Positions 37,539 through 48,375 are shown, counted from the stretch's first letter. The stretch: DNA of 64,000 nt from an uncultured Altererythrobacter sp. (GCA_947492235.1 CANLLZ010000001.1:558001-622000); one strand, 5' to 3'. Numbers and translations are program-made. The notes: generated by a model from the letters alone, not told the origin.

Positions 37539-37952
37539 TTACCGGTCCACGCCCTTGGCTTTTCCCCATTGGCGCGCGGCCGTGTAGCCGAGATAGCCGG
37601 TGCCGAAGAGGGCATAGAGCGGCTCCGGCAGGCCGCCGAGATAGGCATTCATGCCGGTGGCGATGTCGTGGGCCGATTGGGGGCTGATCGCGGCCAACAC
37701 GCCCATTGGCAGCGCGGCCAGAATGATGACGTACATGACGTAGAGAAAGCTGGGCCGGGCGCGGCTGGTCCACGGATCGGCCGACTGCGCCTCTGCGACA
37801 ATCGCGGACAGGCGGGCCTCGATCGCTTTCAGTTCGTGCGTGCCTTCCAGCTTAAGCAGTTCCAGCTTGGCCGCAGCCCGCGCATTTTTGTCTGGAATGA
37901 TCTTGTCGATGATGGAGGCGATGGGGCCAATAAGCGATTCGACGAGGGGCAT
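37539..37952 (-). CDS. GTA-type 3TM holin-like protein
   Basis: The 137-residue protein resembles the 3TM holin family first linked to the gene transfer agent of Rhodobacter. An amphipathic N-terminal helix (LIGPIASIIDKIIPD), the conserved QSADPWTSRARPSFLYVMYV, and two to three hydrophobic helices are present. Holins make inner-membrane holes for endolysin release. No capsid, portal, terminase or other GTA genes are near; it sits in front of aroQ in the same direction. Its role here is therefore open. Confidence 0.7.
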   Translation of the reverse strand: MPLVESLIGPIASIIDKIIPDKNARAAAKLELLKLEGTHELKAIEARLSAIVAEAQSADPWTSRARPSFLYVMYVIILAALPMGVLAAISPQSAHDIATGMNAYLGGLPEPLYALFGTGYLGYTAARQWGKAKGVDR

Positions 37953-38051: not shown

Positions 38052-40094
38052 TCACTGGATGGTGCCTTCGTAAGTCACCGCCACCGTCTCCCCGCCCGGA
38101 AGCTCCGGTACGGCGATGGTGATCGTTCCCGAATTGAACGACACTCCGGTAAAATCGGTGTCGTCTGTCCCGACAGCATCGTCGTCCTCCTCGACGGTGG
38201 CCGCCGCGCAGGTTGCGCCCGATTTTATCGTGCCGGGATTGTAGGTCAGATTGGCCGGAAGCGTATCATTCGCCGTCACGCTTCGCGCAGACGCTGTGCC
38301 TGTGTTCGTGATGAGGATGCAGTAGCGCAGAACCGCGTCGGGAATGGCAAACGCATCGCTCGTCTCGCCCGAAACAGGGTCGCTGACCGGCGTGCTGGAC
38401 TTGGAAACGGTAAGATCGGTGTTGGCGTTGCAAACCTGAATATTGCCGGACATCTGGATGGCCTGCCCGTCGGGGTCGGCGGGTGCCATGCCGTGGTTGC
38501 CATAATCGATGACAATCGTGTCCACCGCGCTGGTGAACGTCGCCACCACATTGCCGTTTGTTTGCGTGTCGCTCGATGATTGATCCCCGAATGCGGTATT
38601 GCCAATCACATAGTTCGACAGTCCGTTGGTCAGGATCGGGATGACATCCGCGCCGTTCAGCTTGCCGGTGACAGTGACCTTGTCGGCGAAGTCATTGGCG
38701 GCGAAATCGACGTCGAAGATGGTGAACTGAGCTCCGTCAACGACTTCTCCCAGCGATATTGTGGTGGTTGCAACCTCAAACCGGTTGTTGAAATCGACCG
38801 CCAGCGACAGCGATGTCGTGCTTTGGACCGCGGTGGTCAGACGAGGATGCGCGCCCCCATAGGCGGCAATGTCGAGATAAGGGGCAGGGCTGGTAAGATC
38901 CCAGTCGAACGCGCCAAAACCCGCGAGATTGTAATCGTTGCTCGTGCTGCCGGGGGTCCAGGTGCGGCCCGCCCAGTCGAAGGCGATCGAACCGTCTGGA
39001 CAGGTAAGAGCGGGCGGTACTCCGGCAGTGCGCGTCCCCTGAACGGTGAAGCTGGCCGATGCGTCATCGTCTTCGCTGGTGGATCCGTTGCCGGAAGTCG
39101 AATCGATGTCGGTGATGCTGGAGGTCCACACCTCTGCATTGTTCACGACTATCGAGCCGGGACCAGCCACCACGTCTACTGTAATGACCAGCGTCCGCGA
39201 GGTGTTCGGGGCAAGCGCCGTTACCGTCCAGTCGCCAGTCGCCGGGTCATAGGCGCCGCCGCTATCGTCGCTGAGATAACTTACGCCAGCAGGCAGCACA
39301 TCGCGAATGATCGCGTTTGCGGTCGCAGTAGAGCTCGAAGCATTGGTCACGGTCACAGTATAAGTGATGTCCTGACCGAACACCGGGCTGGCGGTGCTGA
39401 CCGCTTTGGTCACGGAAAGATCGGCGAAGGGGGCGGTCTGGGGTGTCAGATACAGAGTTGCCTGGCGGAAGATACCATTATCTTCCGTCGGATAGCTGTC
39501 ACACATCAGCAGCGTCCACGTGCCGGCGCTCGATTTGCCGTTGAACGCCGAAAGGGCGTTGTCCGGGATGAAATTGTGCTGGTATCCCCCGTTCACAGCG
39601 GTCGAAAGGTGGTTGGTGGTGTTGCCGTCCGTGTTGACCAGCTGGGTCCCGCCATCGTTCAGGCGGAAATTGAAATTGTCCCCCGAAACCGAGCCGTTGC
39701 CGTCGAGGATCAGCACAGTTGTCCCGTCCGGATGGCGCAATGCCGCGCGTACGTCCCCGCGATAGGTATGCGACCCGCGCATCCCGATATCGACATCGCC
39801 CAGCAGAAAATCGCTCGCCACCGAAAATGTCCGCGTCATTGCGGCATTGCAGGGCGTGGTGCTGTCGAGCGCGCCGGTGGTCGTATTGTTGAACGTCTGG
39901 GTCTGGGCGCTGGCAGGTGCCGCGACCAGCACGGATGCGAGCGCGACAAGAGCGAAAACTCCCACACGCACCGCGAGGAACGTGATGAATTCAAAGCCGG
40001 AATGGACAGCGCGTTGCATGCGGGCAGGACTAATCCGCGCAAGGTTAAGAGGCAGTAACCTTTGGGCGTTTGATACAAGATCTAACGTGCTCAT
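38052..40094 (-). CDS. Exported P-domain plus DUF11-repeat protein (last gene of surface cluster)
   Basis: The 680-residue protein has an unusually long leader (hydrophobic 37-64, cut after ASAQ). Residues 66-218 form a P-domain (proprotein convertase Homo-B-like: FSVASDFLLGDVDIGM, YRGDVRAALRHPDGT, SSAGTWTLLMCDSY) without any protease next to it. DUF11 modules follow around 222-315 (DITYTVTVTNASSST) and 570-680 (ending VAVTYEGTIQ). Its ATG overlaps the stop of the giant barrel gene (ATGA at 40094-40091), so the two are translationally coupled. An internal ATG at 40019 would shorten the leader but has no ribosome site. Function unknown. Confidence 0.75.
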   Translation of the reverse strand: MSTLDLVSNAQRLLPLNLARISPARMQRAVHSGFEFITFLAVRVGVFALVALASVLVAAPASAQTQTFNNTTTGALDSTTPCNAAMTRTFSVASDFLLGDVDIGMRGSHTYRGDVRAALRHPDGTTVLILDGNGSVSGDNFNFRLNDGGTQLVNTDGNTTNHLSTAVNGGYQHNFIPDNALSAFNGKSSAGTWTLLMCDSYPTEDNGIFRQATLYLTPQTAPFADLSVTKAVSTASPVFGQDITYTVTVTNASSSTATANAIIRDVLPAGVSYLSDDSGGAYDPATGDWTVTALAPNTSRTLVITVDVVAGPGSIVVNNAEVWTSSITDIDSTSGNGSTSEDDDASASFTVQGTRTAGVPPALTCPDGSIAFDWAGRTWTPGSTSNDYNLAGFGAFDWDLTSPAPYLDIAAYGGAHPRLTTAVQSTTSLSLAVDFNNRFEVATTTISLGEVVDGAQFTIFDVDFAANDFADKVTVTGKLNGADVIPILTNGLSNYVIGNTAFGDQSSSDTQTNGNVVATFTSAVDTIVIDYGNHGMAPADPDGQAIQMSGNIQVCNANTDLTVSKSSTPVSDPVSGETSDAFAIPDAVLRYCILITNTGTASARSVTANDTLPANLTYNPGTIKSGATCAAATVEEDDDAVGTDDTDFTGVSFNSGTITIAVPELPGGETVAVTYEGTIQ

Positions 40095-43000
40095 CGGCCG
40101 AGCCCCAGGAGGTTGAAGCTGTCGTCATCCAGCTTGATCCGGACGCTGGCGAACAGGCCCTTGTCGGTCGATCGCGCATTCTGGAAATCGGGGTCGCGGA
40201 AGCCGACGATATTGTACCCAACGCTGAGCAGCACATTGTCGGTCGGGACAAAGCCGATTTCGGGGCCCACGGAGAACGCTGTGGTGCCCGACGAAAGATC
40301 ATGGCGTACGCTGGCCTTGCCGCCGATTTCGATCCGGTCGGTCAGGCCGATGCGCAGGTCGAGACCGCCAAGCAGCGTGGTCGTGCCGAGATCGAAGCCT
40401 TCAACTCGGTCGAAATTATGGCGCAGGCCGGCGAACACGCCCACTTCGGTGCGGGCGGACTGGCCGTCTTCCTCGTCCCGGTCGATGGGCGACCAGTTGG
40501 TGGAGACGCTGCCGATCAGGCGGCGCAGTTTCGCATCGCCGGATGTGAGCAGGGCAGTCTGGCCAGCGGCGCCGACAAAACCGTCGACTGCGCCGGTCAC
40601 TTCGTCGCTGCGATATTCTACCTTCGAGAGGAACGAGAATGCGGAGCTTGCGGGACGATGCGCGACAGAAAGTGCCGCGTCGACAATCTGTGTGGTCCCG
40701 CCGGTTTCGTTTTCTGCGCGGGTCCAGGTTGCGCCGCCGCCGACAACGCTGCCTGCGCCCAGACGGCGGATGATCGCGAGATCGGCACCGGTGCGATCAG
40801 CCAGTTCGCCATCGCGGTATTCGCCGCGAGCGCGGGCATTCCAGTCACCGGCGCTCCACGCCGCGCCCAGAGTAAAGGCGGTGAAGTCTTCGCCCAGCAG
40901 GCCGTTGCCATCGAACTGGCCGCCGCTTGGCTCGGGCTGCGCAGGGTTCACCGTGTCGGCGAGCGCGATGCCGCCCGATAGGGTTTTGTTACCGTCCAGC
41001 GTAGCATCTATCAGCAAACGTTCGCCCACGCGGAAGCTGTGGCCCAGAGCGAAGGCTGCGAAAGTGCGGTTCGCGTCGGCTTCTTGCGGGCCGCGACCGA
41101 TGGTGTCCTGCCCGATGGAGCTGACCACACGGCCACCCTCCCAAGGGGTGATCTCTGCGCCGACTTTCACCGTATTGGCGTCGATCGCATCGCCGCGAGC
41201 AATCTCGTAGCTGCCGATGACTTTCACGTCGCGCGAGACTGTGTAGCGCACGCCCAGCGTATGGCGTGTGGGCAGGGCGATGGAGCCCGTGCCGCCCAGC
41301 GGAACGCTGGTTGCGCCGGTGACTTCCAGCGTGTTGTCGAGCAGGCGCTGCGTGCCGCCGGCCTGCAGGATCGTGGAGTTGGTTTTACGACCGTCGGCCA
41401 GCGTGTCGGCGACGTGAGCGACGCCTGCATAGGCATCGGTTTCTGCGGTCTGCCATACGGCGCGCACTTCTACTGCGTCGCGCTTGGCCGTGTCGATCAG
41501 GCTTTCATCGTGCCATGCGCTGGCGACGACGCTGAATTCTTCGGTCAGACGCGCGCGGCCATCCACGCCGACACGGCGGCGGCCACGGTCGGCCACGTTT
41601 TGTTGGCCGACACCGTAATCGGCATCGGTGTGACGGACATAGGCGAGCAGATCGAACGGGCCGGAGGCATGCTCGACTTCGGCGAGATAGGCGTTGGACG
41701 TCGCGCCGTTCTGGCGGCTCATCGCGGCTTCTGCGCGCACTTCGGTCTGTTCACCGATGCGCACCCGCGCATCGACTGCGCCCAGATTGGTGCGCTGCTC
41801 GTCGCCCTTTTCGGTGAGGCCGGTGAAGCCGACGCGCACGCTGTCATCCTCGGTCGACCAGGTCACACGGCCGCCTGCATTCCATTCCTTCTGGCCCAGC
41901 GCATCGACATCGTAATTCACGACGATGAATTGCGGGTTGAGGGCCGGATCGCGGCTGAGCACGGGCTGGGCAAAGGTGATGGTGCCCGACAGCAGGTCGA
42001 CATCGTAGTCGATGAAGCGGGTAAGCGTCTGGCTGCTGACGATCACGTCGCTGCGCAGGCGGTCGCGCACTTCGATGGTCACCGTTTCGCTGTTGGGCAC
42101 AATGCGGCGCGCGCTGAGGCGATAGGGGCCGGAGATACCCTGACCCTGAATTTCGTCGCGGCGCTGGCGCGAACCGATCTTGGCAGCGAAGCCCTGCGCT
42201 TCGACCTGGCCAAAGCGGCCCTCGGCCTTCACGCCGGTCGCGATGCGCTGATAGCGCGCCAGATCCGTCTCATCGAAGCCGGTCTCGAAATCGCCATACA
42301 GAGCGTAGAAGGTGCTGCTTTCCACGCGGACATAGATCTTGTCGCGGCTGGCGGCGTCGAAGAAACGCTGCGAATTGTCGCCGAACACAGTGTAATAGGC
42401 AGCAGGATCGATCGTGCCGAGGAGGCGCTGATCGGATTCCTGCTTGGCGCTGTCATAGGCGATGGTGGCGAGGTATTTGCCCAGCACGCGGCCCTTCGCA
42501 TAAAATGCGACGCGGGCATTGTCGCCCAGATGGCTGTCGAAGTCGCCTTCTCGCTCCATGTTCTCGGCCACATTGCGTGCACCGATGGAACCCTCGGCCA
42601 GGCCGATCAGAGTCCACGGCTGGTCGCCGGGCTCGACCCACGCTTCCAGACGCTCTTCGCGCGTGGTTTCGCCATCGGTAAAGGTGAAGTTCGCGCGCAG
42701 AGCGCCGCTGACCAGCGTCGGGGCCAGTTCGATATAGGCGATGCCATCATCCCCCTCGACCAGCCAGCTGGCCGAAGCATTGCCGAACCCGCTCAGCTCG
42801 CGGCTTTGTGCGGCCTCGATGGCGCTGCGGGTCTGGTACGGGCTGTCGATTGTCAGCGAACCAGCGATGCCTGCGTGGACGGGGCGGCCATTGCGGTCGG
42901 TCATGCGCACGGCCAGCACGGGTGCGGAGGCACCATCGGCGATCAGGCGTGACTGTTCCGGCACGATCTGCGCGCGCAAAGGCGTCGTCGAATAATAGAC

Positions 43001-45151
43001 AGGCCGATCGTATGTTTCGAGCGTGCTGCCATCGGCGTTCTGAATTTCCGCGCGCAGCCGGGTGGTCGGGCCTTCCAAAGGAATGCCGCGATAGATGCTG
43101 ACCGCAAAGGTTTTGTCGGCGCTGGTTTTGGTCCCGTCGAACGCCAGTCCGGAAACGAGCTCGCCGTCGGCGTGCAGGGCTACCCGCTGGCCTGCACGGT
43201 GGCGCACGACTACGCGGATGGAAGGCGAGCGCGGATTGTGGTCCACCTCGGGGAAGATAAAGCCGTCCGGCCCGTCGCCCAGTGCAAGGAAATCGGTCGA
43301 AGCGCCCGATGCCGCGATATTGTCACGCTCTTCGCGTTCCCGCGCTGCATTCTGGGCGATATCTGCGCTGGCCGGGAGAACGGCATGGAAGTCTGCACGC
43401 ACCAGCGATCCGCCCTGGCCGCTGACGAAGCGGGAGATGGGGCTGCCGGCGCTGCGGGTGGAGCGCGTGCAATCCACGAACTCGCCGCCTTCGGGCAGAG
43501 TATAGCGGATGGCCTGCACCACATGGTTGCCCGGCACGACGCCTTCGAAGTGATAGCGGCCGTCATAGTCGGTGATGGCAAAGCTGCCGTCTTCCATCAT
43601 GACGCGCACGCCGGGAATGCCGCGGACTTCGCCGTCGGGGCGGCATCCGCCATCCACGATGCGGCCAATGATCGTCATCCGCGCGGTCAATCCGTCGCGT
43701 TCGATGCGAATTCCGGCCTGTGCGGTGGCGGTGTTGCCGTCGGGTGCAGTGATCGAGGCCAGGTTCTCCGCGTCACCAATGGGCGCATCGTCGCGCACCG
43801 TCATGGCGTAGGTGACCCGGCGGGTCATGCCGCCATTGATGGCGTCGAGTGCGAGGGAGAAGCCGTTGCCGTCGGCGTCCGGCGTCAGTCCTTCGGCGAC
43901 CGGCTGCCCGTCGACACGGATGGAGTCTGTCTGCAAGCGCAAGCCGGGGGCAGCGCGGTCGGTCAGCGTCACGCCGCGCGAAGCCCGCGACGGGTTCGTG
44001 TTGCGCAGCGTGACGGTGTAGAACACGGCGTCGCCCGGCTGAACGATTTCGCGCGAGGCGCGCTTGTCGATCGACACATCACCGCCCGGTGCATCCAGAG
44101 GGTAGTCGATCTGGACAGGGATTACCGAGTCGACAGCAAATGTGGCGCCATAGGAGGCGTCCGAAATCTGGAATGCGCCGCCGGAAGGTGCGGTCAGCTG
44201 CGCCAGTTCTGCCGGGGTTGCAACGGACGGGCCGGTATAGGGCGCGGGCGGCGTGACCTGCAGGCGATAGTTGCCGAATGCGACAAGCGGGAAACGATAT
44301 TCGCCGGGCGCAAAGGCATATACATCGCCATTGGCGTCAGTAGCATTGGAGCCGCTGATCACGGTATTGGGGTAGGGCGTCACGCCGTCGAAGGAGAATA
44401 CTTCGGCTGGCTGTCCGGTAGCGACATCGATCAGAGTCACGGTCGCGCCATCGACAGGCTTTCCGTCGAGGCTGTCGAACACGACACCGAACGGATCGGC
44501 CAGCGCGTCCATCGCACCGGTCAGGAACGGAGTTTCGTTGCCGCGGATGAAGGCTGCGATGCCGATTTCTTCGCCGTCGCGCAGGCTAAGGCGGCAATCG
44601 CCGGTCACCGGGGCGGGGTTCAGCGGCAGGGTGCCAATGGATGCGAAGAAGATTCCGCTGTCGATGCTGTCTTCAACGGCAGTCAGCGTCTCGACGTCGC
44701 CGCTGGGCGTAGTCAGTTCGAGGCGCAGTTCATCGCGCGCGGCGGGGTCGAAATTGGCCGATTGCGCGTTGATCCGCAACACGAGGTTCTGGCCAACCCG
44801 CACAGTGCGCGTGGGGAGGATGTCGGTCTGGTGTGCGCCTTCCGGCGCGCCAGCGATCGTCAGACGCGACGGTGCCGTCGCGCTGGAGCAATAGGATGCG
44901 TTCAGCTCTGCGCTTTGCGGAGCAGAAGGGAAGGGGACGAAAGTGGTCAGTTCCACTTCGGGCTGGGTCACATCGAATGTGACCGTGTTGGAGCCGACCG
45001 TCTGGTCGCGGCCGCCATCGTTCCACGAAGCGGTGGCCGTGTTGGTCACCTGCCGCTCGGATGCGAAGGACGCTTCAGGCGTCAGCACCAGCGCAGTGAA
45101 AGCTGCGAGGAGTGCCGATCCGGCGTGGAAGAGGGATGGGTGCGACCGCAT
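40091..45151 (-). CDS. Giant surface protein: DUF11 and SdrB-like modules with C-terminal outer-membrane barrel
   Basis: The 1686-residue protein starts with a signal peptide (cut near FASERQ, residue 31). A DUF11 domain lies near 354-480 (GDAVFYTVTLRNTNP), a carboxypeptidase-regulatory/Cna-B-like module near 495-545 (TDYDGRYHFEGVVPGNHVV), and a conserved section at 915-1065 (VFGDNSQRFFDAASRDKIYV, YGDFETGF, FIDYDVDLLSGTI). From about 1085 alternating aromatic strands suggest a large outer-membrane beta-barrel, ending in VRIKLDDDSFNLLGLGR, without the usual terminal Phe. ATG 45151 is chosen because it opens on a signal peptide; the longer frame is not. The position inside an all-exported cluster suggests an anchor or export pore for the neighbours; this is inference. 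Confidence 0.75.
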   Translation of the reverse strand: MRSHPSLFHAGSALLAAFTALVLTPEASFASERQVTNTATASWNDGGRDQTVGSNTVTFDVTQPEVELTTFVPFPSAPQSAELNASYCSSATAPSRLTIAGAPEGAHQTDILPTRTVRVGQNLVLRINAQSANFDPAARDELRLELTTPSGDVETLTAVEDSIDSGIFFASIGTLPLNPAPVTGDCRLSLRDGEEIGIAAFIRGNETPFLTGAMDALADPFGVVFDSLDGKPVDGATVTLIDVATGQPAEVFSFDGVTPYPNTVISGSNATDANGDVYAFAPGEYRFPLVAFGNYRLQVTPPAPYTGPSVATPAELAQLTAPSGGAFQISDASYGATFAVDSVIPVQIDYPLDAPGGDVSIDKRASREIVQPGDAVFYTVTLRNTNPSRASRGVTLTDRAAPGLRLQTDSIRVDGQPVAEGLTPDADGNGFSLALDAINGGMTRRVTYAMTVRDDAPIGDAENLASITAPDGNTATAQAGIRIERDGLTARMTIIGRIVDGGCRPDGEVRGIPGVRVMMEDGSFAITDYDGRYHFEGVVPGNHVVQAIRYTLPEGGEFVDCTRSTRSAGSPISRFVSGQGGSLVRADFHAVLPASADIAQNAAREREERDNIAASGASTDFLALGDGPDGFIFPEVDHNPRSPSIRVVVRHRAGQRVALHADGELVSGLAFDGTKTSADKTFAVSIYRGIPLEGPTTRLRAEIQNADGSTLETYDRPVYYSTTPLRAQIVPEQSRLIADGASAPVLAVRMTDRNGRPVHAGIAGSLTIDSPYQTRSAIEAAQSRELSGFGNASASWLVEGDDGIAYIELAPTLVSGALRANFTFTDGETTREERLEAWVEPGDQPWTLIGLAEGSIGARNVAENMEREGDFDSHLGDNARVAFYAKGRVLGKYLATIAYDSAKQESDQRLLGTIDPAAYYTVFGDNSQRFFDAASRDKIYVRVESSTFYALYGDFETGFDETDLARYQRIATGVKAEGRFGQVEAQGFAAKIGSRQRRDEIQGQGISGPYRLSARRIVPNSETVTIEVRDRLRSDVIVSSQTLTRFIDYDVDLLSGTITFAQPVLSRDPALNPQFIVVNYDVDALGQKEWNAGGRVTWSTEDDSVRVGFTGLTEKGDEQRTNLGAVDARVRIGEQTEVRAEAAMSRQNGATSNAYLAEVEHASGPFDLLAYVRHTDADYGVGQQNVADRGRRRVGVDGRARLTEEFSVVASAWHDESLIDTAKRDAVEVRAVWQTAETDAYAGVAHVADTLADGRKTNSTILQAGGTQRLLDNTLEVTGATSVPLGGTGSIALPTRHTLGVRYTVSRDVKVIGSYEIARGDAIDANTVKVGAEITPWEGGRVVSSIGQDTIGRGPQEADANRTFAAFALGHSFRVGERLLIDATLDGNKTLSGGIALADTVNPAQPEPSGGQFDGNGLLGEDFTAFTLGAAWSAGDWNARARGEYRDGELADRTGADLAIIRRLGAGSVVGGGATWTRAENETGGTTQIVDAALSVAHRPASSAFSFLSKVEYRSDEVTGAVDGFVGAAGQTALLTSGDAKLRRLIGSVSTNWSPIDRDEEDGQSARTEVGVFAGLRHNFDRVEGFDLGTTTLLGGLDLRIGLTDRIEIGGKASVRHDLSSGTTAFSVGPEIGFVPTDNVLLSVGYNIVGFRDPDFQNARSTDKGLFASVRIKLDDDSFNLLGLGR

Positions 45152-45191
45152 GGGGTGTGCTCTGGCTTCAGATTTTTCCTGTAAGCCGGAG

Positions 45192-45219
45192 GGAGGACGC
45201 CCGATGTCAGGCGCCCTCC
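45192..45219 (-). other. Stem-loop between surface-cluster genes 3 and 4
   Basis: In the minus-strand transcript GGAGGGCGC (45219-45211) pairs with GCGTCCTCC (45200-45192) with one G-U wobble; in the plus orientation the same position would be an A-C mismatch. There is no T-run, so it is more likely an RNA processing or partial attenuation element than a terminator. It lies in the 82-bp gap before the giant barrel gene. Confidence 0.5.
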
Positions 45220-45233
45220 AACCGTTTTCCTGC

Positions 45234-46322
45234 TTAGTTGATGGTAGCGCGGAAGATGAGAGACTGCTGTTCGCCGCCAGCGAGCGAGCCGATGGTGCCG
45301 GACACCACGCCGCCGCTGAAGCTGCCGGCGGTACCGCCCGGAGTGTCGCAATCAGCGCCGCCGACGCGGACACCGAATGCGGGGACATAAGTCACCTCGG
45401 CGGGCAGCGTATCGGAGATGGTCACATTGGTGGCCGTCGCGCTTCCGGCAACGTTGGCTACCAGAATGCAATATTCCATCGTTGCGCCCGGCAGATAGGT
45501 GCCGCTGTTATCGCCGCCAAAGGCACCGACAACCACTGCACTGGACTTGGTCGCGGTGAGGCCTGCTGCCAGCACGACATAATCGTCCGTATCGAAGGCA
45601 GCGCCGTCATTGGCGATCTGGCCGTCGGCATCGGTGTCGGCAAACACGGTGTCCACGGTGAGCGGATCGGCCGAGTTGGCGGTCGCCACAGTGAACGAGC
45701 CACCCAGCGCGGTCGTGCCGTCATCAACGCGGGCAATCGCGCTCAGCGTGATGGCTGCGCGGTCATCGGTGCTCAGACCACCCTCGATGTTGGAAACAAC
45801 GTGGATGATGGCCGAGTCGCCGGAAGGCAGCGCATCGATATGCGTGATAACCGTATCGCTGGCGTCGAACACGCCCGGCGTACCGGCAGACGGGTTGTCG
45901 AGGTAATAGGTGAAGCCGCCCGTTGCGTCGAAATTGTCGCTCGCGGTGCCGTCCAGTTCGGATGCCGTGCCGGTTGCGACGTTTGTGGCGTCAAGCTGGA
46001 AATCCACCGCGTCGTTCGACTCGTTCGTGACGACATAGGTGACAGCCGCGCCGGTTTCGCCCGGCGTAACCTGGGTGCCGGTGTTGTCGGTACGAGCCAC
46101 GGTCAGGTTGATCTTGCGGTCAACTGCGACCTCGTCCTGTGCTTCCACAGGGTCCTGAGCCACGGCGTCAGGGCCGCTGCCGATGTTGTAGTTCACGGTT
46201 ACTTCGTTGAGGATCGTCTCGCCGACCTGGGTGCCGACAGGGGCAGCCATGGCCGGGGTGGCGAGAGCCAGGGTGCCGAGTACGACACCCAGAGCGCTGC
46301 CATGGGCAAAAGTTCTGGTCAT
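45234..46322 (-). CDS. Exported DUF11-like protein (third gene of surface cluster)
   Basis: The 362-residue protein has a signal peptide (cut near AMAAP, residue 27) and a beta-rich body. Its N-terminal start (VGETILNEVTVNYNIGSG) looks like that of the 328-residue protein at 46925. The C-terminal DUF11-like module (about 255-362) contains ATMEYCILVANVAGSATAT and ends QSLIFRATIN. No anchor or sorting signal is visible. It is likely secreted or bound at the surface with its neighbours. The 123-bp gap to the second gene contains another stem-loop. Confidence 0.7.
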   Translation of the reverse strand: MTRTFAHGSALGVVLGTLALATPAMAAPVGTQVGETILNEVTVNYNIGSGPDAVAQDPVEAQDEVAVDRKINLTVARTDNTGTQVTPGETGAAVTYVVTNESNDAVDFQLDATNVATGTASELDGTASDNFDATGGFTYYLDNPSAGTPGVFDASDTVITHIDALPSGDSAIIHVVSNIEGGLSTDDRAAITLSAIARVDDGTTALGGSFTVATANSADPLTVDTVFADTDADGQIANDGAAFDTDDYVVLAAGLTATKSSAVVVGAFGGDNSGTYLPGATMEYCILVANVAGSATATNVTISDTLPAEVTYVPAFGVRVGGADCDTPGGTAGSFSGGVVSGTIGSLAGGEQQSLIFRATIN

Positions 46323-46408
46323 TGGTGGTCTCCGTTATGCGTTCGGACGGTCCGCGTTCCCGAAGGACAACGGCCGGTTTTGGTTGACGCCTGAAGGGCG
46401 GCTTTCGC

Positions 46409-46430
46409 GGGGGCGCTGGTCTTCGCCCCC
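46409..46430 (-). other. Stem-loop between surface-cluster genes 2 and 3
   Basis: GGGGGCG (46409-46415) and CGCCCCC (46424-46430) form a perfect 7-bp stem with an 8-nt loop in the 123-bp gap after the 151-residue gene. There is no T-run on either strand. It may protect or process the mRNA so that upstream genes are expressed more strongly. Confidence 0.5.
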
Positions 46431-46445
46431 GGGAAACTTTGAAAT

Positions 46446-46901
46446 TTATTTGACGGTCGCGCGGTAGCTGACGACGCCTTCGGCCTTGGGGGCCATCTGG
46501 GCGACGACCCAGCGCAGATGCGTGACATCCTCTGCCGTTGCCGGACGCGAGGACTGGTCTTCAGCAGTGACCGTCAGGCTCGCGAGCGGGCCCCACACGG
46601 TTCCGCCATCCACCGACACTTCCAGCGAAGCAGCTGAAGCCGGCGTCAACGTAACGTGCTGGGGGACGGGGCTGACGACCGTGAAGTCGCTGATCGTGGC
46701 GCCCGTGCGGTTGCTGTAGTTGGTCTGAAACTCCAGCACGTCGCCCGGCACGACACTGGCCGGATCGACCAGTTTCTCGCCGGCATCGCTTTGGCTCACC
46801 AGCTGGATGGCGCTGGTCAGTTCGATCGGCTTGTCCTGCGCGGCGGCCGGAACGGCCATCGACGAGATTGCAAGAGCAGCGATGATACTTCTGATATTCA
46901 T
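46446..46901 (-). CDS. Small exported DUF11-like protein (second gene of surface cluster)
   Basis: The 151-residue protein has a signal peptide (cut near AAAQD, residue 21) and a single Ig-like/DUF11-type module: DVLEFQTNYSNRTGATISDF, then VPQHVTLTPASAASLEV and the end VVSYRATVK. It is the simplest member of the cluster and could be a subunit. GAGGAAA upstream fixes the ATG at 46901. It lies 23 bp after the first gene. Confidence 0.72.
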   Translation of the reverse strand: MNIRSIIAALAISSMAVPAAAQDKPIELTSAIQLVSQSDAGEKLVDPASVVPGDVLEFQTNYSNRTGATISDFTVVSPVPQHVTLTPASAASLEVSVDGGTVWGPLASLTVTAEDQSSRPATAEDVTHLRWVVAQMAPKAEGVVSYRATVK

Positions 46902-46924
46902 GGGGTTTTTCCTCGTCCGAAAGA

Positions 46925-47911
46925 TCATTCGTCGATCTTGACTTTGAAGGTGATGATGGTGCTGGTGCCACCGGCCACCGTGCCGAGGTCGACATTGACC
47001 TGTGTGCCGTCTGCGGTGACTGCGTCCCCGTCTGCGGCATCGGTCAGGCGTACGCCGCCGACCCGCGTGGTGCTGGGGATGTAGGTGGTGTTGACCGGGA
47101 TCGGATCGTTCACGACCAACCCGTCGACCGAGCCGGAGCCCGATACGCGTGCGATCAGACGGTAGGTGACGATCGAGCCGGGAATGGTCTGGCTGCCGCC
47201 GAAAGGATCGAGCACGGTTGCGCTCTTGGTCAGCGTTACAGCGCTGACCTGGGCAATGAGCGTGCCGATATCGTCGTCAATCGCTGTGGTCAGACCGACG
47301 ACCGCGTCGACCCCGTCGACACCCTGGCCGGCAAACACCGTACCCGGCGTGCCGCTGCCGGTCACAGCTGTGGCTGTCAGGCGGACATCGGCAGTGTCGC
47401 CATTGCCCGGCGCCGCGCCATCAAACTCTGTAATTACAAACATGCGCAGCGAGCCGTCGGCTGCGATTTCCGGCGTGCTGCCGCCAGCCGGGATCACGAT
47501 GTCTACGCCTTCGTCGTAAACGCCATTGCCGTTGCTGTCATAAGCGAACTTCACGATTGCGGGGTCGAAGTCGTCTCCGGTCAGAGCGGGATCGACATCG
47601 ATGTTGTATGCTTCGGGGCCGTTGCCCGTATTGTTGACCTGAAATGTGAGAACCGCGCCTGCAGCTGTAAGTACGACTTCGCCGGCGTCCAGCGACTGGA
47701 CGGCGACATCAAGGATCTCGTCGACCTTGACTGTTACCTTGTTCGAAGGGACCGTTTCGGTCGCTCCACCAATCGTATAGGTCGCCTCGGCGGTGTTATC
47801 GATCGGTGTACCTGCAGGGACGCCCTCGGCCATTGCGGCGGAGGGCAGGGCGATGGCGGTAAGGCCGGCAGAGGCTGCCAACAATACGCTTCTGGTGTGG
47901 CTACGTGTCAT
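46925..47911 (-). CDS. Exported DUF11-like protein (first gene of surface cluster)
   Basis: The 328-residue protein has a signal peptide (cut near AMAEG, residue 29), an N-terminal part typical of DUF11-associated proteins (TPIDNTAEATYTIGGATET), a middle with acidic, calcium-binding-like DSNGNGVYDEG, and a C-terminal DUF11-like module (about 225-328) ending TIITFKVKIDE. It opens the five-gene cluster; its promoter would be in 47912-48298. Function is unknown, with surface location inferred. Confidence 0.72.
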   Translation of the reverse strand: MTRSHTRSVLLAASAGLTAIALPSAAMAEGVPAGTPIDNTAEATYTIGGATETVPSNKVTVKVDEILDVAVQSLDAGEVVLTAAGAVLTFQVNNTGNGPEAYNIDVDPALTGDDFDPAIVKFAYDSNGNGVYDEGVDIVIPAGGSTPEIAADGSLRMFVITEFDGAAPGNGDTADVRLTATAVTGSGTPGTVFAGQGVDGVDAVVGLTTAIDDDIGTLIAQVSAVTLTKSATVLDPFGGSQTIPGSIVTYRLIARVSGSGSVDGLVVNDPIPVNTTYIPSTTRVGGVRLTDAADGDAVTADGTQVNVDLGTVAGGTSTIITFKVKIDE

Positions 47912-48298: not shown

Positions 48299-48375
48299 TG
48301 GTCGGGACGATAGGATTCGAACCTACGACCCCCACACCCCCAGTGTGGTGCGCTACCAGACTGCGCTACGTCCCG
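48299..48375 (-). tRNA. tRNA-Pro (anticodon GGG)
   Basis: The minus strand folds into a 77-nt cloverleaf with acceptor stem CGGGACG/CGTCCCG, anticodon stem CCACA/TGTGG and loop CTGGGGG, giving GGG for proline. The T-arm contains GGTTCGAATCC and the CCA end is encoded. It is the second proline tRNA of the window. Confidence 0.96.

Follow-up and report, generated by a model that had tools for sequence, protein, structure and literature searches.

Five consecutive genes in the genome of an uncultured Altererythrobacter sp. probably encode a fibrillar adhesin made in pieces. Its chain would run tip (g5)-g1-g3-barrel, its subunits would be completed in trans, and its joints would probably be locked covalently without a sortase or chaperone (we put this reading at roughly 60%). 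By sequence, the parts of the DUF11 (CLIPPER, isopeptide-forming) domain and its Lys-Asp-Asn triad are distributed over different genes, a feature that the initial annotation had missed. Since the triad is divided between genes, an order of assembly is implied. The window analysed is the whole 64,000-nucleotide stretch GCA_947492235.1 CANLLZ010000001.1:558001-622000, in which the genes are as follows:

46925-47911, minus strand: g1, 328 aa, conserved first gene of the core; predicted exported shaft subunit with an N-terminal donor and a C-terminal incomplete DUF11 acceptor
46446-46901, minus strand: g2, 151 aa, from the ATG at 46901; small, exported, acceptor-like
45234-46322, minus strand: g3, 362 aa; predicted exported shaft subunit with donor and acceptor
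40091-45151, minus strand: barrel protein, 1686 aa; a donor precedes Ig-like and carboxypeptidase-regulatory modules and one complete DUF11, and the predicted giant barrel follows
38052-40094, minus strand: g5, 680 aa; putative tip protein with a P-domain, one complete DUF11 and a C-terminal acceptor

Re-reading of the window's ORFs confirmed five minus-strand genes in the order g1, g2, g3, barrel, g5, separated by gaps of 23, 123 and 82 bp and, between the barrel stop and g5, a 4-bp overlap. All five proteins start with a Sec-type signal peptide as judged by eye, with cleavage sites read in the same way as AMA|EGV (g1), AAA|QDK (g2), AMA|APV (g3), SFA|SER (barrel) and ASA|QTQ (g5). The initial annotation had described this layout, the signal peptides and the gaps correctly. 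It had also been right that usher, chaperone and sortase are absent: the five proteins have no Pfam or NCBIfam match to any of these families, FimD being a weak structural match. Its interpretation as a whole is supported in part. Pfam and NCBIfam match DUF11 in g3, the barrel protein and g5, together with CarboxypepD_reg/SdrD_B-like modules in the barrel protein and a P-domain in g5, while the likeness is weaker in g1, which reaches the TIGR01451 cut-off only, and in g2, which stays below cut-off in both databases.

The C-termini of g1, g3 and g5 are DUF11 domains that lack the last strands and have the reactive Lys and the catalytic Asp. After the signal peptide, the N-termini of g1, g3 and the barrel protein carry the missing strands with the reactive Asn, in the form xINTAxAxYxxGG...SNxVxxxV. 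The barrel protein has a donor and no acceptor, and g2 and g5 have an acceptor and no donor. The split parts, with the one complete DUF11 of the barrel protein, are located as follows:

47714-47827, minus strand: g1 donor strands, aa 29-66; Asn39, codon 47797-47795
46928-47242, minus strand: g1 incomplete DUF11 acceptor, aa 224-328; Lys229, Asp269
46107-46244, minus strand: g3 donor strands, aa 27-72; Asn39
45237-45569, minus strand: g3 incomplete DUF11 acceptor, aa 252-362; Lys259, Asp304
44954-45061, minus strand: barrel donor strands, aa 31-66; Asn37
43700-44098, minus strand: the barrel protein's complete DUF11, in which one chain holds Lys363, Asp398 and Asn463
38055-38423, minus strand: g5 incomplete DUF11 acceptor, aa 558-680; Lys565, Asp610

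The crystallised CLIPPER (DUF11) domain has its bond between Lys715 and Asn806, and Asp748 is the putative catalyst (PMC12617251). In the cluster, DUF11 domains carry these three residues at the corresponding positions of a putative bond, in one chain in the barrel protein and divided between the acceptors and donors. All three residues are strongly conserved across loci. The acceptor Lys is kept in 144/144 g1 and 149/149 g3 sequences and the acceptor Asp in 142/144 and 146/149; the donor Asn is kept in 132/142 g1, 146/146 g3 and 144/146 barrel sequences (some held-out duplicates, e.g. L178 and L050, may remain in these counts). The small g2 departs from this pattern. Its profile match covers DUF11 positions 17-102 of 133, the Asp position is Asn in 79/87, and the Lys position is Lys in just 33 sequences. 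Lacking both reactive residues, g2 is acceptor-like and may serve as a cap or chaperone.

Joining an acceptor to the donor of another gene lengthened the domain match. On their own, the acceptors of g1 and g3 match Pfam DUF11 up to 84/114 and that of g5 up to 64; with another gene's donor the match reaches 98-112 and gains 3 to 15 bits, versus 0-2 for controls. The g3 acceptor scores 39.3 bits alone; the barrel donor lifts it to 54.5 and the g1 donor to 44.6 (control segment, 40.3). For the g1 acceptor, 21.6 bits alone, the barrel donor gives 32.4 and the g3 donor 25.0 (control segment, 23.4), and the g1 donor takes the g5 acceptor from 28.7 to 31.8. At a second locus, the Pfam gains were +8.9/+7.0 for the barrel donor and +3.2/+3.5 for the g1/g3 donors, against +1.9/+0.2 for a control that was an arbitrary made-up sequence, not a real protein segment. 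A test over 83 loci used a model derived from the complete DUF11 domains of the barrel proteins. With this model, the g1 acceptor gained 8.3 bits with the g1 donor, 7.0 with the g3 donor and 0.9 with shuffled sequence; the g3 acceptor gained 6.0 with the g1 donor, 4.6 with the g3 donor and about 0 with shuffled sequence; and the gain from the barrel donor was small (+2.3 versus +1.3 bits). No donor gave a gain with a g5-derived DUF11 model, and isolated donor profiles did not match the DUF11 profile significantly. The split-domain claim therefore rests on the completion tests and on co-loss of the triad residues.

The gene that follows the barrel is usually acceptor-ended with a variable N-terminus. 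In the first set, 42 loci have the tip Lys and Asp intact, and there the g1 donor Asn is present wherever g1 is readable; the g1 Asn has become Ser in L044, L048, L104 and L112, all of which have lost both Lys and Asp of the tip. We extended the comparison with 60 held-out loci and with unlinked tips from genomes that have no linked tip. The tip Lys/Asp and the g1 Asn were both lost in 8 cases and both kept in 93; the tip residues alone were lost in 1 (L164), and the g1 Asn alone in 0 (Fisher test, P-value = 4e-11, uncorrected for relatedness). For unlinked tips the tip-cluster pairing is assumed, the tip Asp of L092, which is Glu, is scored as intact, and duplicates were removed from the table automatically apart from L168, which was taken out by hand. 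On the tree, the tip losses fall into four independent lineages and loss of the g1 Asn accompanies them in 4/4; a tree-based sign test on four pairs is unable to reach 0.05. There are exceptions on both sides: L164, a near relative, retains the g1 Asn with the tip Lys/Asp gone, and L143, a distant locus, retains the tip Lys and Asp with the g1 Asn gone. In L044/L048 the Asp of g1 and the Asp of g3 are lost together with the barrel Asn. One genus has a second cluster type (L104, L162-L165, L167 and L221), whose barrel protein has also lost Lys and Asn from its complete DUF11. At L236 (G062:C3:231400-238200), three tandem tip genes lie beside the cluster on the opposite strand, none with the reactive Lys and Asp.

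Natural fusions and a model of one joint bear on the pairing of donors with acceptors. In L150 and L151 two subunits are fused in one chain; the joint, read by eye, is a complete DUF11 with its Asn, and the fused chain keeps a donor at its start and an acceptor at its end. As a model of a joint, g3 of L074 was read through into the barrel donor, both genes being in one frame. The barrel donor strands were predicted at pLDDT ~80-86 and the linker at ~45; the g3 protein's own donor was also well ordered, so that on this model either donor could occupy the groove of g3. Nearest folds found by Foldseek include the C-terminal domains of streptococcal AgI/II proteins, among them SspB, which has two intramolecular isopeptide bonds. 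Sequence, co-loss and fusion data speak for the predicted completion of an incomplete Ig-like subunit by the N-terminal strand of another.

The giant protein had been proposed to contain a beta-barrel, and structure prediction agrees. The parts concerned are:

40127-42613, minus strand: predicted beta-barrel, aa ~847-1675, ~40 strands, from an AlphaFold2 model and Foldseek
41936-42145, minus strand: plug-like beta insertion, aa ~1003-1072, between predicted strands 8 and 9

The AlphaFold2 model of aa 600-1686, built on 46 aligned relatives (mean pLDDT 78, pTM 0.71), contains Ig-like domains followed by ~40 long strands at aa 847-1675. The strand number was taken from the secondary-structure string of the model, and closure of the barrel is putative. 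Foldseek matches are to the outer-membrane barrels SlpA, LptD, BtuB, FimD and SprA at low TM scores, which makes the giant protein a probable outer-membrane barrel with no close relative of solved structure. Sequence searches of the PDB with the barrel protein and with g5 returned no match. The plug-like insertion falls inside the barrel block common to distant relatives. In L152, L154, L156 and L157 the conserved barrel block (aa ~850-1150) occurs in separate barrel genes beside very large DUF11 proteins.

We found the core g1-g2-g3-barrel in this order at ~145 loci of one alphaproteobacterial family, with differing flanks. This count comprises ~85 distinct loci and ~60 more that were read as a held-out set and of which a few duplicate earlier ones; loci fetched twice include L035, L053, L055, L056, L058, L066, L078 and L168. 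The core genes keep the same order on one strand in nearly every complete locus examined, so the arrangement is not due to chance; deviations come from contig ends, from broken genes and from a few loci with g2 under the cut-off. The genes had been proposed to form one unit, a view that scattered copies in relatives could have overturned; in relatives' loci the order is kept. Relatives of the barrel protein were found in 14/60 relatives, in 90/299 genomes of the family (~30%) and in 41/96 genera. In the order search, every listed match came from the same family; the class search matched 11/337 genomes and the phylum search 53/398, both including close relatives of the window's genome. Elsewhere in Pseudomonadota the cluster occurs in reduced or fused form, and distant loci retain the barrel, g2 and one shaft subunit or two, in some cases with a tip (L142, L143, L145-L149). 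In L100 and L103, g3 is duplicated in tandem between g2 and the barrel. A related operon on plasmid p4 of Acinetobacter haemolyticus (L160, CP085288.1 187584-204910) has a g2-like gene, shaft pieces that read as several fragments, a 2020-aa barrel, an OmpA-family protein and an acceptor-tailed tip. A conjugative Novosphingobium plasmid (L161, NZ_CP028348.1 6085-25101) carries the core with barrel and g3 in pieces.

The tips carry varied domains, namely P-domain, right-handed beta-helix, CshA_NR2 with SpaA_3, DUF7933 and ice-binding-like, and some tip N-terminal domains are known from adhesins; the ice-binding-like domain was seen in a distant tip (L142:606-1817). Genomes without a linked tip have acceptor-tailed tips elsewhere, at times several. 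A surface layer, one of the structures raised by the initial annotation, is less likely than a short chain from tip to anchor, the last protein being an exchangeable tip whose N-terminal domains are of types known from adhesins. We considered an S-layer and did not favour it, the tip-shaft-anchor logic speaking against it.

We propose that the acceptor ending one protein would be completed by the donor starting the next, from the tip (g5) to g1, to g3 and to the barrel. The assembled chain would resemble one continuous DUF11 adhesin reaching from an adhesive tip, interchangeable at the g5 position, to an outer-membrane anchor. At each joint, Lys and the catalytic Asp from the acceptor and Asn from the donor would form a self-locking Lys-Asn isopeptide with no need of sortase or chaperone. 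The tip-g1 joint is the best supported by sequence, through co-loss; the g3-barrel joint is suggested by one lineage (L044/L048), and the g1-g3 joint by elimination and by the fusions. Because these joints would use every donor, g2 would be left as a non-reactive acceptor, which might temporarily bind donor strands in the periplasm as a cap or chaperone. The ~40-strand barrel would serve as the anchor of the fibre and perhaps as its passage across the outer membrane. Covalent bonds, surface location and export via the barrel are suggested by the families involved; surface exposure of the other proteins, their passage through the barrel and an outward barrel N-terminus are likewise putative. 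That the cluster represents a new Gram-negative fibre system, with trans-completed split isopeptide domains, autocatalytic covalent joints, swappable tips and g2 as a donor cap, is a more tentative proposal, to which we give slightly less than even odds. Under it, separately exported proteins would assemble outside the cell or during transit through the ~40-strand barrel.

The same parts could be put together otherwise. Since g1 and g3 each hold both halves in one chain, and the g3 protein's own donor is well ordered in the L074 model, their N-terminal strands might fill their own C-terminal domains, leaving separate surface or periplasmic monomers that share an operon. We regard such self-completion as very improbable. 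The barrel donor has no acceptor and the g2 and g5 acceptors have no donor, so at least these must pair in trans. Moreover, loss of the g1 Asn follows the tip Lys/Asp (8/9) and not the Lys and Asp of g1 itself, whose retention in most co-loss loci argues against it. The chain could also be joined in trans with Lys, Asp and Asn serving a structural role and forming no isopeptide bond. The triad is missing at certain joints in some loci, so a bond-free fibre seems viable, and bond-free DUF11 domains are mentioned in a survey (PMC12617251). Against this, the triad is near-invariant on both sides of each joint, its three residues are lost jointly, and the solved DUF11 relative has exactly these bond residues; we hold a non-covalent fibre to be improbable.

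A pilus built like those of the chaperone-usher type, with many copies of g1 and/or g3, g5 at its tip and the barrel serving as assembly pore, is a variant of the chain made in pieces and differs from it in stoichiometry. The donor and acceptor present in both g1 and g3, the tandem g3 genes of L100 and L103 and the single shaft subunit of some distant loci (L148) are in its favour. However, co-loss ties the g1 donor to the tip, and the natural fusions join two subunits once and show no long repeats. Repeated polymerisation is thus unlikely, if a more serious contender than the two readings above, and we prefer the short chain tip-g1-g3-barrel.

Like chaperone-usher pili (type 1, P, archaic), the cluster has C-terminal incomplete Ig-like domains, N-terminal extensions as putative donors, a putative tip adhesin and a predicted outer-membrane barrel with a plug-like insertion. 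Unlike in those pili, the donor is a strand pair with an Asn, the proposed joint has an isopeptide triad, and the barrel is larger and itself bears a donor. CLIPPER/DUF11 fibrillar adhesins (PMC12617251) share with the cluster the domain, the Lys-Asp-Asn triad, an adhesive N-terminus, a stalk and an outer-membrane anchor. However, their triad is intramolecular and they are one polypeptide, whereas here the triad is divided between genes, and the tip, the shafts and the anchor each have a gene of their own. The bonds dealt with in the 2025 survey of isopeptide domains are intramolecular, and those of CLIPPER are described as such (PMC12617251). The archaeal thread Saci_0406 (PMC9715654), compared by description only, is reported to use donor-strand complementation without a chaperone and to have apparent covalent links between subunits, described as an unusual isopeptide. 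It differs in that these links run from the N-terminal alpha-amino group to an Asn two subunits away, and in having one repeating subunit and no barrel.

Sortase-assembled Gram-positive pili share the isopeptide chemistry, but their subunits are linked enzymatically. We found no sortase among the five proteins (Pfam, NCBIfam) and no LPXTG-type sorting signal, the subunits ending at the acceptor strand. The split isopeptide domain of SpyTag/SpyCatcher was engineered, and the Spy and Dog tags result from artificial splitting, whereas the split in the cluster would be natural. Type V pili of Bacteroidota (Mfa) form from lipoprotein precursors by protease-triggered strand exchange. They are Gram-negative pili with an isopeptide in the tip protein, and no split triad has been described for them; the isopeptide of Mfa5 is intramolecular (PMC7835359). 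Among the open-licence PMC papers searched, we found no description of this gene set or assembly system.

If the proposed assembly is correct, it would be a natural route to a covalently locked surface fibre that needs neither sortase nor chaperone, and it would occur in ~30% of the genomes sampled from one alphaproteobacterial family as well as in relatives from across the Pseudomonadota. It would also give a function to many unannotated "DUF11 domain-containing" and giant barrel proteins. A natural in-trans isopeptide domain would supply orthogonal ligation pairs and would be directly testable with purified fragments.

A scan for regulatory sites gave 6 promoter-like sites versus 3.0 expected and 8 terminator-like sites versus 9.5 expected, numbers that speak neither for nor against an operon. 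Directly downstream of g5 lies a 137-aa gene that is holin-like by inspection (37539-37952, minus strand), and a holin-like gene also follows the cluster in L020, a locus from the same genus. Upstream of g1 is a tRNA-Pro(ggg) gene (48299-48375, minus strand); many loci have other neighbours.
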